NCBI GenBank assembly: GCA_035651655.1
Contig: DASRFG010000001.1
Coordinates: forward strand, 94,001 to 158,000
DNA: 64,000 bases
Source of the DNA: Terriglobales bacterium
GTDB taxonomy: Bacteria; Acidobacteriota; Terriglobia; Terriglobales; Acidobacteriaceae
Reading direction: 5' to 3'
Below, piece after piece: positions 40,786 to 47,806 of this stretch. A program made the position numbers and the translations under genes. Every line of letters begins with the position of its first letter. Within the stretch, counting starts at the first letter, position 1. The notes beneath the pieces are model-generated. The model did no database searches, was not told the origin of the DNA, and saw only the letters and a list, made by a program, of their open reading frames with translations.

Positions 40786-43119
40786 TCAGCTCTTCTGCAA
40801 AATCTCCGGCACCAGCCGCTCTTCAGTCTCAGCGTGGAGCGCTCGATCGAGCGCCTCGCCCCAGGCCTCGCGCAGGTCTGAGATGTCCGCCGACACCACC
40901 ACCCTGCCGTCTACCTCAATCTCTAATTTTTCGGGAATTGTAACCCCGATGGAATGGGCCCTGACGCCATATTTTCTGGCTGCTTGTTGGATTCCCGCGA
41001 CATGCTCAGGGTCGCAGGAGAGAACTACCCGACTGGCATCCTCGCAAAACAGGACGCACTCAGCAGGCAGGCCGCCGGAACCCAATTCCAGTCTGGCGCC
41101 GACGAGATTCCGGAGCCCCGACTTCGCGCAGGCTACAGCCAAGCCGCCCTCGGAAAGATCGTGGGCGGAATCGATCAGGCCGTCGCGAACCAGCTCACCC
41201 AGGCATTTCTGCAGGGCAGCTTCCTTCTCCAGCTCCAAAGCCGGAGGGAAACCCCAAATCTCTCCCAGAACTTCTTTCGCGTACTCGGATGATCCAAACT
41301 CCGCCTGAGCATCGGTCACATCACCCGGCTCAGAACCACGAAGTAGAACTACGCTGCGGCCGGGCTGCTGAAAATGCATTCGGGCAATGCTGTCCACATC
41401 GTCAACAATTCCCACCACGCCGAGAACGGGAGTGGGATAGATTGCCTCTCCCAGCGTTTCGTTGTAAAAGCTGACGTTTCCGCCGGTGATCGGAATTTCC
41501 AGCTCTTCGCAGGCTTTGGTGATGCCGTCCACCACCTGCGAGAACTGCCACATGATCTCGGGCTTCTCGGGATTGCCAAAATTCAGGCAGTTTGTGGCAG
41601 CAACGGGAGTCGCTCCCGTGCAAGCGACGTTGCGAGCAGCCTCCGCGACCGCGTGCATGGCGCCAAGTTTGGGATCGAGATAGCACCAACGCCCGTTTCC
41701 ATCGAGCGCCATTGCCAGACCACGGCCAGTGCCCTTCAATCGGATGACGCCAGCATCTCCGCCTCCGGGGCCTTCGACCGTATTGGTCTGGACCATCGAA
41801 TCGTATTGCTCGTGAATCCAGCGTTTCGAACAGATATTCGGACTGGCCAGCAACTGCTTGAGTTCCGCGGTCAAGTTGGCTCGCTCGCCCAATAGCACCG
41901 CATCCGGCATTTCCCTCGGAACCGGCGGCTCCCAACGCTCCATTGGCCGGGCGTAAACCGGGGCGTCGTCGGTGAGAGCGTCATTGGGAATGTCGGCCAT
42001 CACTTCCCCGTGCTGCAACACGCGCATGCGGTTCTCTGCGATCACCTTCCCGACGACCACGGCGTCCAAACCCCATTTCTCGAAAACACGCAATACTTCC
42101 TGCTCGCGGCCTTTTTCAGCGACCAGCAACATGCGCTCCTGGGACTCGCTGAGCATGATTTCGTAAGCACTCATACCGGTTTCGCGCTGCGGCACGCGGT
42201 CGAGTTCAATCTCGAGTCCCACTTTGCCACGCGCTCCCATCTCGCAAGTCGAGCACGTCAGGCCAGCGGCGCCCATGTCCTGGATGCCAACCACGGCACC
42301 CGTTTCCATGGCTTCCAAACAAGCTTCCAGGAGCAACTTCTCGAGGAAAGGATCGCCCACTTGCACATTGGGCCGCTTCTGTTCTGAGGCCGCGCTAAAT
42401 TCCTCGCTGGCCATGGTGGCGCCATGGATGCCATCACGGCCGGTTTTCGCGCCAACATATATGACGGGGTTTCCCTCGCCAGCGGCCCGGGCGTAGAAGA
42501 TCTTGTCGCGACGAACCAGCCCAAGGGCGAAAGCGTTGACCAGGGGATTGCGGGAGTAGGAGCTTTCGAATTTAGTCTCGCCGCCAAGATTTGGCACGCC
42601 AAAGCAGTTTCCATAAGAGGCGATTCCGCTCACTACCCCTTCGAGTACTGAATGATTCTTGTGGATTGTGGAGTCGTCCTCAGTTGTGGCGGTACCGGAT
42701 TTTGAAATGGAACCAAAGCGTAGCGAATCCATTACCGCTACCGGACGCGCGCCCATGGTGAAGATGTCGCGCAGAATGCCGCCTACACCAGTCGCGGCAC
42801 CCTGAAACGGCTCAATAAAGGAGGGGTGGTTGTGTGACTCGATCTTGAACGCGCAGGCCCAGCCATCGCCAATGTCAATGATGCCGGCGTTTTCTCCCGG
42901 CCCCTGGACGACTCGCCGGCTGCGGGTTGGCAGGCGCTTCAGGTGAACGCGAGACGACTTATAGGAACAGTGTTCGCTCCACATCACGCTGAAGATACCT
43001 AATTCGGTCAGGCTAGGTTCGCGTCTGAGCAACTTTTGGATTTTTTCGTACTCCTCCGGCGTAAGACCGTGCTCGCGGACGACTTCGGGACTAATGGCAG
43101 AGGCGGTAACCGGGTTCAT
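40786..43119 (-). CDS. purL: Phosphoribosylformylglycinamidine synthase subunit II
   Basis: The 777-residue ATP-dependent synthase (small PurL of the PurLQS type) converts FGAR to FGAM in purine synthesis. Seen: [13 protein letters not shown] at the N-terminus, the catalytic [34 protein letters not shown], the GGIASYGN-type segment, and a second half with [12 protein letters not shown] and [11 protein letters not shown]. It needs PurQ and PurS, which are not in the window. ATG 43119 is chosen because the family motif begins about 18 residues later; the RBS is weak. It is upstream of purF on the same strand. Confidence 0.96.
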
Positions 43120-43229
43120 TGATTGGATCTCGGGGATATCTTTATTGTCGCATTGAACTGCCCAACTGGAAAGGGAGCAGCAAAACCCCTGCGGCGGTGG
43201 GCGCATCTGAACTGGTATGTAACGAGTTT

Positions 43230-43299
43230 CTGTCCCGGAGGTTACGGGACAGCCTCAGGAGAGCCGAAAAACTGCGGCTTTCCTGAGCCCCGTACGGGG
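43230..43299. other. Three consecutive hairpins upstream of purL
   Basis: CTGTCCCG/CGGGACAG (43230-43237, 43245-43252); a 13-pair stem CTCAGGAGAGCCG/CGGCTTTCCTGAG (43254-43266, 43275-43287, one G-T); and the 12-nt palindrome CCCCGTACGGGG (43288-43299). They occupy most of the space between the DUF2007 gene and purL. This could be a mobile palindromic element or a structured 5' leader of purL. Confidence 0.65.
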
Positions 43300-43321
43300 T
43301 TGATGCCGAGTTTCTGGGTGT

Positions 43322-43783
43322 TTATACCCGTTCTTCCTGATTTGCGGGATCTTCGGCAGGCTCCCCTGGTTTCTCCTTCCATTCATACCCGCAATCCTGG
43401 CATCTCCATCGCAGCCTCCTTGGGAATGGCAAAGGGAAAGAAAGCATTAGCCAGGAAAGAAACCTGACCCAACGATTGCGGTCACCGTAAGAGATCTTTA
43501 ATGAGTCGCACTCCGGACAGGTCGGCTGAAGGTAAAGTTCGCCTTCCTCACCAAAAATTACTGCCGGAATTCCCGAGCCGAGAAGTTCGGTGGCAATCTT
43601 GGCGTCTTTCTTGTGAACCTGAAGGCGCACCCCACCTACCGCATTGGCATACAGCCAATCCAACCGAACGATGTTCTCATTGGCCAGAAAGCAGGGAATG
43701 CCGACTGACTCTAATGAGCCCTTTGCGAGCCACGCCTCAGGCAGGTCGCGAAAGCTGGCGATAGTGACCAGGGGCTTTGCCAT
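43322..43783 (-). CDS. DUF2007-type domain plus zinc-ribbon protein
   Basis: The 153-residue protein has an N-terminal ferredoxin-like DUF2007 domain (LVTIASFRDLPEAWLAKGSLESVGIP, about 4-75), a family proposed to be involved in signalling, and a C-terminal pair of cysteine knuckles (CPEC near 89-92 and CQDC near 132) that should bind zinc. The tail is Glu/Pro-rich. It is followed by the three-hairpin element and purL on the same strand, and is divergent from selB with an 80-bp gap. Confidence 0.8.
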   Translation of the reverse strand: MAKPLVTIASFRDLPEAWLAKGSLESVGIPCFLANENIVRLDWLYANAVGGVRLQVHKKDAKIATELLGSGIPAVIFGEEGELYLQPTCPECDSLKISYGDRNRWVRFLSWLMLSFPLPFPRRLRWRCQDCGYEWKEKPGEPAEDPANQEERV

Positions 43784-43863
43784 CTCTCTTCCATTCTAAA
43801 GCGATTCGGCCGTGAAGATGCCCGACGGTGGCGCTTTCGGCGGATTGAGTACACTGTTGTGCG

Positions 43864-45759
43864 ATGAAGTCCGTAATCGTCGGCACCGCCGGCCATATTG
43901 ATCATGGGAAATCCGCGCTGGTGAAGGCGCTGACCGGCACCGATCCTGACCGGTTAGAGGAAGAAAAGCGACGCGGCATAACTATTGATATCGGCTTCGC
44001 GTATCTGGAGCTGCCCGACGCTGCAGGCGAGACGCTGCGACTCGGCTTTGTTGACGTCCCCGGACATGAGCGTTTTGTGCGCAACATGCTGGCGGGTGTA
44101 GGCGGGATTGACTTGGTGTTGCTGGTCATCGCCGCCGATGAATCCATCAAGCCGCAAACTCGCGAGCACTTTGATATTTGCCGGCTGCTTTCGATTCGAC
44201 GCGGGATCACCGTAATCACCAAGTCTGATTTGGTGGATGCCGATACCTTGGATGTGGTGCGACTGGAAGCGGAAGAGTTTCTGCGTGGATCTTTTCTCGA
44301 TAGCTCGCACGCGCCAATCGTCTCCGTAAGCGCAAAGACCGGCGCAGGTATTCCGGAACTCAAGCAGGCTCTGTCGAAGATCGCTGCTGCGGCGCAGCCC
44401 AAAGATTCCGAAGCCTTCGCGCGACTGCCGATCGACCGCGTGTTCGTAATGAAAGGCTTCGGGACTGTGGTGACCGGCACTCTGGTTTCAGGAAGGATTC
44501 AGAAGGAAGACGAGTTGGAAGTGTTTCCGAGCGGACGGCGGGTGCGGGTCCGAGGAATTCAAGTGCATGGCCGTCAAGCCAACGTGGCCACCGCAGGCCA
44601 GCGTACCGCGCTTAATCTCGCCGGCCTCACCACTGATGATCTGGCGCGCGGCATGGTTCTCGCGCCCCCGGACACCTTTCGCGCGACTTCTCGGATTGAC
44701 GTGTCGCTCTCGCTGCTGCCCTCGGCGCGTCCGCTGCGCGAGCGGGCTCGGGTTCACCTGCACGCTTATACCGCAGAAACCGTCGCCGAAGTTAACTTGC
44801 ATGGCGCCAAGCAGCTTGCGCCCGGACAATCCGGCTTTGCGCGATTGCGTCCCGCGCAGCCAATGTTGCTGCTGCCCGGGGACCGCTTCATCCTGCGCCA
44901 GTTTTCACCGGTGGTCACGATCGGGGGCGGGGTGGTGCTCGATGCGGCTCCCTTGCCGGGCAAATTAGCGCAGAAAAGCGGAACTGATCTCGAGATCCTT
45001 GCCAATGGCTCGCCTGCAGAAATACTCAGTGCTCGTGTGGCCCGGCGTGGCAAATCCGGGCTCGGGCTCGAGGACGTTGTCAACGAAACAGGGTGGCGAC
45101 GGCAGGAGATCGAAGCGACTGCGAAATCTCTAGACAAAAGCATTCGCCGCATCGGGAAAGTTCTGATATCGGCGGAAGGGTTCGATCAGGCCCGGGCAGG
45201 GGCGCTCGCCACCGTCAATGCATTTCATGCTGCCAATCCGCTGGTGGCGGGGATCAGCAAGGAAGAGCTTCGCGAGAAACTGCATCTAAGTTCGGAAGTT
45301 TTTCAGGGGGTTCTCGAAGCGCTGCTCCGCGACAAGAAGCTCGAGGCCACGGGCGAGCAGGTACGAGCCGCGGGGCGAGGCGTGGTGCTGCGCGACGAGG
45401 AGGCGGAATCGAAGCGCACCATCGAGCAGGCATTTTCGTCAGCAGGATTGAAGGTGCCGGCGTTAAAGGACGTGCTAGCCGGATTGCGAGTGGATCGTGT
45501 GCGCGCTCAGAAGATCGTCACCCTGCTTTTGCGCGATAAAGTGTTGGTGAAGATTTCCGACGACCTGGTTTTCCATCGCGATGCCCTGGATGATCTTCGG
45601 CGCCGCGTAATTGCACACAAAGCCAAATCCCCGAAGATGGGCGTGGCCGAATTCAAAGACCTCACCGGCATCACGCGGAAGTACGCCATCCCACTGCTCG
45701 AATACCTGGATCGCGAGCGCGTGACCCGGCGAGTAGCCGACGAACGGATAATACTTTGA
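43864..45759 (+). CDS. selB: Selenocysteine-specific translation elongation factor SelB
   Basis: The 631-residue factor delivers Sec-tRNA(Sec) to UGA codons marked by a SECIS hairpin. Its EF-Tu-like part has G1 [23 protein letters not shown] in switch [10 protein letters not shown] (G3), TKSDLVD (G4) and SAKTG (G5), then beta-barrel domains II/III. The C-terminal about 270 residues are winged-helix repeats (ending [35 protein letters not shown] region), which bind SECIS RNA. The IDIGFA switch and winged helices separate it from EF-Tu and initiation factors. selA, selC and selD are not in the window. Convergent with the selenoprotein gene. Confidence 0.96.
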
Positions 45760-45793
45760 TTGCCTATCGCGGCATCCGCCCTCGCGGGCCCAA

Positions 45794-45833
45794 GGCGAGC
45801 CACGCTCGCCAGCACAGGCGAGGGCGCCTGTGC
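45794..45833. repeat. Two perfect hairpins between selB and the selenoprotein gene
   Basis: GGCGAGC-CAC-GCTCGCC (45794-45810) and GCACAGGCG-AGGG-CGCCTGTGC (45812-45833) are 7-bp and 9-bp perfect stems, back to back. There is no T-tract on either side. This looks like a REP-type element that could also punctuate the two convergent transcripts. Confidence 0.6.
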
Positions 45834-45877
45834 CCACGTGAGTTGGGTGCATGCACTCATCGACTTACATAGGGCAA

Positions 45878-46405
45878 CTAAATCTTTTCCGGCGGAAATT
45901 CGAGCTCCAGCCCAAGTGGATCAGTAAATCGGTTGGTCAGGTTAACCACGCCGACCAGAATATCCAACTCAACAATCTCAGGGTCGGAGAAATGCTTCTT
46001 CAGGCCGGCGATGTCGCCGTCGCTGATCTCCCACGGTGTGCGCGTGAGCTTTTCGGCGAATGCCAGCGCAGCTTTTTCTTTGTCGCTGAAAGAAGCGGTA
46101 GAGGGGGTTTTTAGTGCCTTCCAATCTTCCTGGGTAAGCCCGGCGCGCTTCGACGAAGCGAGGTGGTGCTGCATTCAATACTGGCAGCGATTCAACATGG
46201 AAACGCGGATGTACACCATCTCGTAGAGGCGCTTCTCCAGTCCTCTGCCCACGCTGCTGTAAAAACTTAGGAAGTTCTTGAAGATCTCCGGTCGCTGAGC
46301 CAATGCTTTGTGAACATTGCCCGGCTTGCCCTTGAGCACTTTCTCGTAAATTTCTTTTACTTCGGGGTCGGCAGCGTTCGGTTCCACCAGCTTAATTCTT
46401 GCCAT
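45878..46405 (-). CDS. AhpD/carboxymuconolactone-decarboxylase-like selenoprotein (CxxU)
   Basis: One frame of 175 residues interrupted only by TGA at 46177-46175 (codon 77). Read through, the site is C74-Q-Y-U77-M-Q-H-H81, matching the AhpD pattern C-x-x-C-x-x-x-H; Glu62 lies 12 residues before Cys74, as Glu118 precedes Cys130 in mycobacterial AhpD. Both halves have CMD-family features (MARIKLVEPNAADPEVKEIYEKV and the C-terminal helices to LGVELEF-type end). A SECIS-like hairpin follows the TGA, and selB is 118 bp away. It is presumably a thiol/selenol peroxidase or oxidoreductase. ATG 46405 has GGAG 6 nt upstream. Standard callers would split it into two genes. Confidence 0.88.
46146..46177 (-). 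promoter_or_regulatory. Sec codon (TGA) with downstream bacterial SECIS-like hairpin
   Basis: After TGA (46177-46175) come 14 nt, then CGCTTC (46160-46155), loop GTC (46154-46152) and GAAGCG (46151-46146). The loop is 20 nt from the TGA and starts with G; I recall both as features of bacterial SECIS elements read by SelB. Confidence 0.75.
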
Positions 46406-46428
46406 CGTTAACTCCATGATTAGGCACC

Positions 46429-46434
46429 TATAAT
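46429..46434 (+). promoter_or_regulatory. Candidate -10 element for trmFO
   Basis: TATAAT, 22 bp before the TTG start at 46457, in the 51-bp space between divergent trmFO and the selenoprotein gene. No convincing -35 at 17 nt. Confidence 0.3.
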
Positions 46435-46456
46435 ACAAGACCGGGGAAGTCGAACC

Positions 46457-47806
46457 TTGCCATCGCGAGTGCAAATAATTGGCGCCGGTCTGGCCGGCTC
46501 GGAAGCCGCCTGGCAACTGGCTCGCAGGGGTGTGTCCGTTGACCTCTACGAAATGCGGCCGGTGCGCTCCACTCCAGCCCATCAGACCGGCGACTTTGCT
46601 GAGCTGGTGTGCTCGAACTCTCTCAAGTCCGAGAGCGAGAACACCGCCCCGTGGCTGCTCAAGGAAGAAATGCGCCGTGCCGGCTCGTTGCTACTTGAGT
46701 TGGCGCGTTCCGCCTCCGTTCCCGCCGGACACGCGCTGGCTGTGGACCGCACCGCATTCTCCGCGGCAGTTACCCAGGCAATTTCTGGCGAGCCGAACAT
46801 CCATGTGCACCGAGAGGAAGTCACGCGCATTGACGAAGCAGCCGGGACCACGATCATTGCGACCGGACCGCTCACCTCCGATGCGCTGTCGCAAGAAATC
46901 GCACGCCTCAGCGGCAGCACGCATCTTTATTTTTTCGATTCTATAAGCCCGATCGTCGAGGCTGACTCGATTGACCTTTCGCGCGTGTACCGCGCCGCCC
47001 GCTATGACAAGGGGACAGCCGATTACATCAACTGTCCCATGAGTAACGAAGAGTACGACCGCTTCTATGCCGCGCTGCTCGCGGCAGAGTCGGTGGAGGC
47101 TCGCGATTGGGAGAAGCTGAACTATTTCGAAGCGTGCCTGCCAATTGAAGAAATCGCCCGGCGTGGGCGCGACACTTTGCGATTCGGGCCCATGAAACCG
47201 GTAGGCCTCCGCGATCCCCGCACTGGGAAGCAGCCTTACGCCGTAGTGCAATTGCGGCAGGAAAACTTGCGAGCCGATTCGTACAACATTGTTGGTTTCC
47301 AAAATCATTTGAAGTTTGGTGAGCAGGCCCGCGTGCTGCGCCTCATCCCCGGGCTGGAGAACGCGCGCTTTCTGCGCTATGGACAGATCCATCGCAATAC
47401 TTACATCAATGCGCCTTCTCTGCTGCGCGAGACTTTGCAGATGAAGCTGCATCCGAATGTGCTCTTTGCCGGACAGATCTGCGGCGTGGAAGGCTACGTC
47501 GAATCAATTGCAACCGGACTCATGGCGGGGATGCATGCCGCGGCGCTAGCGCTTGGCGACGTGCCGGTTCCGCCCCCGCGTGCGACTGCATTCGGGTCTC
47601 TGGTGCGCTACGTCACACATGCTGATCCGCAGAATTTTCAGCCGGCAAACATCACATTCGATCTTCTGCCGCCGCTCGAAACAAAAATCCGCGACCGCGC
47701 CGAGCGGCATCGGCTGCAGTGTGAACGCGCGTTAGGGGAATTGCAAAGTTGGTTGGAGTCCCAACCGAATGTACCCTGTACTACAGAACGAGCAGTGTCT
47801 TTTTAG
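46457..47806 (+). CDS. trmFO: Methylenetetrahydrofolate-dependent tRNA (uracil-54-C5)-methyltransferase
   Basis: The 449-residue flavoprotein makes ribothymidine at tRNA position 54 using methylene-THF and FAD. Seen: the FAD-binding start VQIIGAGLAGSEAAWQLARRG, the TrmFO/GidA-type LYEMRP followed by THQTG-like TPAHQTGDFAELVCSNSLKS, the NCPM motif, and ICGVEGYVESIATGL near the C-terminus. Length is normal for TrmFO (about 440). The start is TTG 46457 with GGGGAAG 8 nt upstream; an in-frame GTG at 46469 is the alternative. Confidence 0.95.
   Translation: MPSRVQIIGAGLAGSEAAWQLARRGVSVDLYEMRPVRSTPAHQTGDFAELVCSNSLKSESENTAPWLLKEEMRRAGSLLLELARSASVPAGHALAVDRTAFSAAVTQAISGEPNIHVHREEVTRIDEAAGTTIIATGPLTSDALSQEIARLSGSTHLYFFDSISPIVEADSIDLSRVYRAARYDKGTADYINCPMSNEEYDRFYAALLAAESVEARDWEKLNYFEACLPIEEIARRGRDTLRFGPMKPVGLRDPRTGKQPYAVVQLRQENLRADSYNIVGFQNHLKFGEQARVLRLIPGLENARFLRYGQIHRNTYINAPSLLRETLQMKLHPNVLFAGQICGVEGYVESIATGLMAGMHAAALALGDVPVPPPRATAFGSLVRYVTHADPQNFQPANITFDLLPPLETKIRDRAERHRLQCERALGELQSWLESQPNVPCTTERAVSF

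Follow-up and report, generated by a model that had tools for sequence, protein, structure and literature searches.

An AhpD-like gene on the minus strand of the 64,000-nucleotide stretch of DNA analyzed here (the window) almost certainly decodes an in-frame UGA as selenocysteine (Sec), as we infer from its reading frame, the codon itself, a downstream hairpin, the Sec machinery of the genome and a fold model.

Reading frame, active site and hairpin

The gene, identified by its frame, the Pfam CMD match and alignment, runs from 46405 to 45878 on the minus strand and encodes 175 residues followed by TAA, with a single in-frame TGA at codon 77 (46175..46177). The initial annotation had described two CMD-family halves in one frame with a single TGA between them, and the reading frame confirmed this arrangement; in the list of open reading frames the gene is divided into one piece up to the TGA and a 98-residue piece directly behind it. 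Based on the frame and the codons of homologues, the TGA replaces the second Cys of a C-x-x-C motif, which reads C74-Q-Y-U77. The partner thiol, Cys74 (46184..46186), is invariant in both alignments described below. Glu62 (46220..46222) lies 12 residues before Cys74 and His81 (46163..46165) four residues after U77, as had been proposed from the letters alone, and both were assigned from the frame and the alignment as proton-relay residues by comparison with PA0269 of Pseudomonas aeruginosa.

The predicted SECIS hairpin (46146..46160, minus strand), assigned by folding and homologue comparison, was present where the initial annotation had placed it. It reads CGCUUC-GUC-GAAGCG from 46160 to 46146, with a 6-bp stem and a 3-nt GUC loop (46154-46152) that starts 20 nt past the TGA. 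The constraints for bacterial SECIS elements given in the available text of PMC13188914 are a loop of 3-9 nt, an upper stem of 4-16 bp, a G in the first two loop positions, a distance of 16-37 nt from the UGA and an MFE <= -7.5. Compared by hand, the 3-nt GUC loop, the 6-bp stem, the spacing of 20 nt and the folding energy of -12.7 kcal/mol for 46128-46180 all fall within these limits. The folding energy itself was ordinary (z = 0.23), with 117 of 200 shuffles folding at least as well, and it was set aside as uninformative. The support for the hairpin therefore comes from homologue comparison, in which it covaries across distant TGA homologues.

In the proposed mechanism, the ribosome would reach the UGA, the downstream hairpin in the mRNA would recruit SelB with Sec-tRNA(Sec), and Sec would be inserted at the UGA in place of termination. 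The product would belong to the AhpD-like (peroxidase-related, CMD-fold) redox enzymes, with Sec in place of the catalytic Cys, the second of the C-x-x-C motif.

Codon 77 and the hairpin in homologues

Homologues were collected in two samples, which share some of their loci; the counts were kept separate and never added. For the first sample, 200 related genomes were searched and homologues at E<=1e-20 were obtained in 68 of them; together with three weaker paralogues from the genome of the window (the own genome), the 75 matches gave 78 loci. Homologues with Cys or TGA at codon 77, which the initial annotation had named as a check on its reading, were both found. The position was occupied by TGA in 47 of the 78 loci and by a Cys codon (TGC/TGT) in 27, the motif search having required C or U there, so that all kept loci are C or U by construction; the remaining four (L045, L051, L074 and L079) have no C-x-x-C/U at this place and were excluded from the C/U and hairpin counts. 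Each TGA locus has just one TGA within the matched region. The close clade around the window gene (L012-L040) contains 14 TGA and 15 Cys loci.

A stem of 6-8 pairs whose 3-nt loop reads GUC or GGC and begins 20 nt past the TGA was found in 45 of the 47 TGA loci, compared with a hairpin at this fixed place in none of the 27 Cys loci (Fisher 3.5e-18, kinship ignored). The TGA exceptions were L070, without such a hairpin, and L044, with the loop 3 nt earlier. Two Cys loci, L023 and L024, have 6-pair stems, but elsewhere. The judgement in the initial annotation that a chance stop at this codon was unlikely is borne out by these counts.

The covariation count covers 34 of the 47 TGA loci, which were chosen by us with some similar loci as well as L044 and L070 omitted. 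In this set, 91.5% of cells were paired versus 32-49% in slid controls, 58 cells were double-changed, 7 of 8 pairs were altered on both sides, and the covariation score was reached by none of 500 shuffles. One of the five covariation measures, the number of pair types, showed no excess (13 vs 13.3 in shuffles), and the outermost stem pair was open in 22 of the 34 loci. The stem was nearly invariant among the 14 close TGA loci, with too little variation to judge covariation; the 15 close Cys loci showed 53% pairing and no covariation signal. Synonymous differences were calculated for 12 of the 14 close TGA loci (L015 and L028 were omitted for length differences) and for all 15 close Cys loci. 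In the stem codons the synonymous difference pS was 0.07 in the TGA genes versus 0.73 in the Cys genes, and in flanking codons it was 0.65 and 0.88, respectively. The 89 codons past the TGA were stop-free in those 27 genes and the differences among them were mostly synonymous.

These comparisons bear on three other readings of the TGA, all of which were rejected on the homologue codons, the hairpin and the synonymous constraint. The first, in which the TGA is a normal stop or arose by recent nonsense mutation and leaves a pseudogene or a 76-residue fragment, would be in keeping with the role of TGA as a stop elsewhere in this genome, where selB ends with it, and with a relative (L168, described below) that is a decayed copy with a TGA and frameshifts. 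However, 47 loci carry TGA at the aligned codon and none has a second one in the matched region, purifying selection persists past the TGA, and the hairpin and the synonymous constraint track the TGA genes, which makes this reading very unlikely. The second reading, two coupled genes with a stop at the TGA and a restart at the adjoining ATG (TGAATG), draws on the window itself, where the TGA is directly followed by an ATG that starts a 98-aa open reading frame. Codon 78 is ATG in only 4 of the 14 close TGA homologues, however, the others having one TTG (a possible start) and nine CTG, CTT, CTC or ACC codons; as a restart would also leave the hairpin and the loss of an active-site residue unexplained, we regard it as extremely improbable. 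A sequencing or assembly error that turned TGC or TGT into TGA might be suspected in an assembly of 39 contigs, but the same TGA and hairpin occur in other assemblies and in the window the hairpin is intact, so that an error is scarcely credible. The decoding of UGA as Sec is retained as the preferred reading.

In-frame TAA codons were also observed in two TGA loci of the first sample, L025 (G013) and L066 (G010); in L025 the TAA precedes residue 21 of the match. They may reflect a later start, an error or decay.

The second sample was a scan of named genomes, which resulted in 74 loci: 70 from Acidobacteriota (e.g. Acidobacteriaceae, Terriglobia, Candidatus Sulfotelmatobacter and Candidatus Angelobacter), two from Planctomycetales and two from Dokdonia. 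The 70 acidobacterial loci comprise 12 TGA and 58 Cys loci; L171 and L172 read C-D-Y-C yet lie outside the motif search, and the distant L169 and L170 are not among the 58. A stem of at least 6 pairs at the fixed place was present in 11 of the 12 TGA loci versus 3 of the 58 Cys loci. The sole TGA exception, L168:5022-5489, is a decayed homologue with frameshifts and without the hairpin, near a selB match. The three Cys genes, L137, L141 and L145, have a 6-7-pair stem at the SECIS position, with CUC in place of GUC in the loop of L145. It is possible that these stems are leftover SECIS elements after a change from Sec to Cys, or they may have arisen by chance.

Selenocysteine machinery and gene neighborhood

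The own genome (4.07 Mb, 39 contigs, 99.8% complete) contains the complete Sec machinery, selA, selB, selC and selD; the three genes that the initial annotation had proposed to look for outside the window (selA, selC and selD) were all found. The gene for tRNA-Sec (selC, anticodon TCA) is located at C10:6064-6157, where it scored 66.8 bits against RF01852 (cut-off 47) and was also called by ARAGORN. Because the family model passes its cut-off at a second place too, where ARAGORN reads tRNA-Ile, the selC call relies on both programs. The match to selA reached 558 bits and that to selD 361 bits, selD having an in-frame TGA of its own in AAGUASK. The Sec-specific elongation factor gene selB (43864..45759, plus strand) matched TIGR00475 with 358.9 bits (cut-off 242.25) and ends with TGA, which is still an ordinary stop in this genome.

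Across the first sample, selA matches at E<=1e-60 were obtained in all 41 genomes that have a TGA form versus 16 of 27 homologue genomes with only other forms (Fisher 8.5e-6, kinship ignored). A hand count at the same threshold found selB in 40 of the 41 TGA-form genomes. One genome, G028 (L014, L085), has TGA forms and selA and no selB match at E<=1e-60, perhaps owing to an assembly gap.

At least eight Sec-type genes were recognized in the own genome, the window gene included: four CMD genes, selD and three formate-dehydrogenase-like genes. The three CMD paralogues, each with a CxYU motif and a TGA, are L042 (G000:C26:13075-13584; TIGR01926 84.1, above the cut-off), L043 (G000:C23:315708-316211; 58.1, below the cut-off) and L044 (G000:C24:18245-18631; 110.1, above the cut-off). 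The formate-dehydrogenase-like genes, L175, L176 and L177, lie outside the window on contigs C23, C17 and C1 of G000 and have their TGA in NQARIUH, NQARVUH and TQARVUH, respectively; they matched TIGR01591 in stretches only and below its cut-off, the best with 182.5 of 666 bits. A further CMD-like gene without CxxC, L045 (G000:C10:4438-4788), was observed ∼1.3 kb from selC. The hairpin was also built into a covariance model (R1) for a genome-wide search of the own genome for SECIS elements, a use for which the model was rejected: it listed three of the four selenoprotein genes of the CMD family and one match at E=4, and L044, selD and the formate-dehydrogenase-like genes were missing from its list.

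The selenoprotein gene is convergent with selB, which ends at 45759, and 118 bases separate the two. On the side opposite selB lies a GidA-family gene of the conserved neighborhood (46457..47806, plus strand; PF01134, 5.2e-97), which, with the support of the PF01134 match, is probably trmFO. The PurL-like gene beyond selB is presumably purL. The initial annotation had given the 118-bp distance correctly and had counted it in favor of Sec; as evidence for a selenoprotein, however, the nearness of selB was rejected because Cys homologues share it. In the second sample, selB lies within 350 bases of 48 of the 58 Cys loci and 8 of the 12 TGA loci, and within the fetched stretch (<=5 kb, often shortened by contig ends) a selB match was present for 52 of 58 and 9 of 12, respectively. 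The GidA-family gene is found on the other side of 11 of the 12 TGA and 48 of the 58 Cys loci, and a PurL-like gene past selB in 5 of 12 and 35 of 58. Counted by hand in the first sample, selB lies within 1 kb of the gene in 10 of the 14 TGA loci and 8 of the 15 Cys loci of the close clade. In the window (40786-47806) and in L099-L167, the CMD gene recurs between the GidA-family gene and selB, often with a PurL-like gene past selB, with Sec or Cys alike. Most likely, this gene order is of long standing in the clade and does not depend on Sec.

Predicted function, evolution and relation to known systems

With the TGA read as Cys, the window protein matched the Pfam CMD family (PF02627) with E=1.4e-15 and 57.5 bits against a cut-off of 23, and it scored 32.2 with TIGR00778, above the cut-off of 27.8. 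The score with the peroxidase-related subfamily TIGR01926 was 77.7, which is below the cut-off of 81.8 and leaves the protein outside this subfamily; a Cys homologue (L018) and a TGA homologue (L013) of the clade scored 76.8 and 71.5. The best NCBIfam model was NF053654 (E=3.4e-22 over residues 1-162), to which the protein does not belong, its 79 bits falling short of the cut-off of 310. An AlphaFold2 model of the protein had a mean pLDDT of 96.3, and its best fold matches in the PDB were the peroxidase-related AhpD-like proteins 2prr, 3c1l, 6k40 and 2pfx, with query TM-scores of 0.74-0.85.

The proton relay of PA0269 consists of Glu36, Cys48, Tyr50, Cys51 and His55, according to the consulted part of PMC3141380. 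All five positions are matched in the window protein by E62, C74, Y76, U77 and H81, and they are invariant over 32 aligned sequences (the window protein and 31 of the 74 named-genome loci) when Sec is counted as Cys. The other alignment with the relay residues covers 27 of the 29 close loci. From the relay described in PMC3141380, as far as its available text goes, Cys133 of Mycobacterium tuberculosis AhpD would be the catalytic counterpart of U77.

The protein would most likely cycle between a Cys74-U77 selenenylsulfide and a selenol/thiol pair, with deprotonation aided by Glu62 and His81, and would either reduce peroxides or act as a thioredoxin-like adaptor for a peroxidase. We consider such a peroxidase or adaptor role moderately likely; as to substrate and partner, we infer them from the family only. 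The peroxidase activity measured for PA0269 is described as weak in the part of PMC3141380 that was available. A selenoprotein with other CMD-fold chemistry, e.g. simple thiol-disulfide exchange or a reductive dehalogenation like that of Bmp8, is compatible with Sec insertion and competes solely on function. It is conceivable because the debrominase Bmp8 (6ohi, 6ohj) has the same fold and is among the sequence and fold matches, and in the consulted text of the PA0269 paper (PMC3141380) the substrate binding sites of AhpD-like proteins are said not to be known. The Bmp8 matches (18% identity) are weaker than those to peroxidase-related proteins, however, and the relay residues agree with PA0269, so that other chemistry appears less likely and the peroxidase or adaptor role is preferred.

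The tree of 29 rows requires at least four changes between Sec and Cys (bootstrap 3-6), and a tree of 72 rows, with L168, L171 and L172 left out, requires five. Well-supported branches force only one change, and an independent-pairs test found one pair on supported branches, which is too few for significance. Judged from the sequences, repeated switching between Sec and Cys in the clade is probable. The chances are about even that a distinct, mostly selB-linked subfamily of Terriglobales switched several times between Sec and Cys and stayed near selB, with leftover SECIS elements in some of the Cys genes. If so, the subfamily would form a natural series for dating when Sec was gained and lost and for measuring its catalytic benefit on close relatives. 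Within the clade, related proteins have either Sec or Cys at a single active-site position, and their genomes mostly retain the Sec machinery; such matched pairs make it possible to test why Sec is kept or dropped by bacteria.

AhpD-like selenoproteins with CxxU had been predicted in bacteria, as the initial annotation stated: according to the text available to us, 27 sequences from the Sargasso Sea were reported in 2005 (PMC1088965), and the group appears in reviews of 2022 (PMC9312934) and 2026 (PMC13188914). The remark that no acidobacterial example was known holds in part. From the accessible parts of the reports, selenoproteins of the phylum have been in print since 2006, when three families with four proteins were counted in Acidobacteria (PMC1794560), and three selenoproteins were reported for Occallatibacter riparius in 2025 (PMC12013277); the clade itself is unnamed in the literature searched, in which, with most subscription journals outside the search, no paper naming the clade or its link to selB was found. 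AhpD-like CxxU enzymes and acidobacterial selenoproteins are thus already known, and the acidobacterial clade described here is a well-supported addition to them. Gene callers that treat TGA as a stop split the gene, and the same is expected in other acidobacterial genomes with the TGA form.

Among known systems, the COG2128 (YciW)/TIGR01926 CxxU selenoprotein is, from the part of its description available, likewise AhpD-like, with Sec in the second position, a predicted SECIS downstream and Cys homologues, whereas the clade of the window lies just under the cut-off of 81.8 and mostly near selB in Acidobacteriota. NF053654 (GroundWater_YciW, YciW-related (seleno)protein) is the top NCBIfam model for the window protein, yet the protein is not a member. 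M. tuberculosis AhpD (1knc, 1gu9), as far as the partial sources describe it, has Glu, Cys, Cys and His at the corresponding positions 118, 130, 133 and 137, but it has Cys for Sec and His at the place of Tyr76, and the fold match is weak (E 0.7 or worse). PA0269 (PDB 2ijc, 2o4d, 7xw1), judged by the consulted text, shares the fold and the five proton-relay residues with the window protein, at 32-34% identity in the structural alignment, and differs in having Cys where the window protein has Sec.
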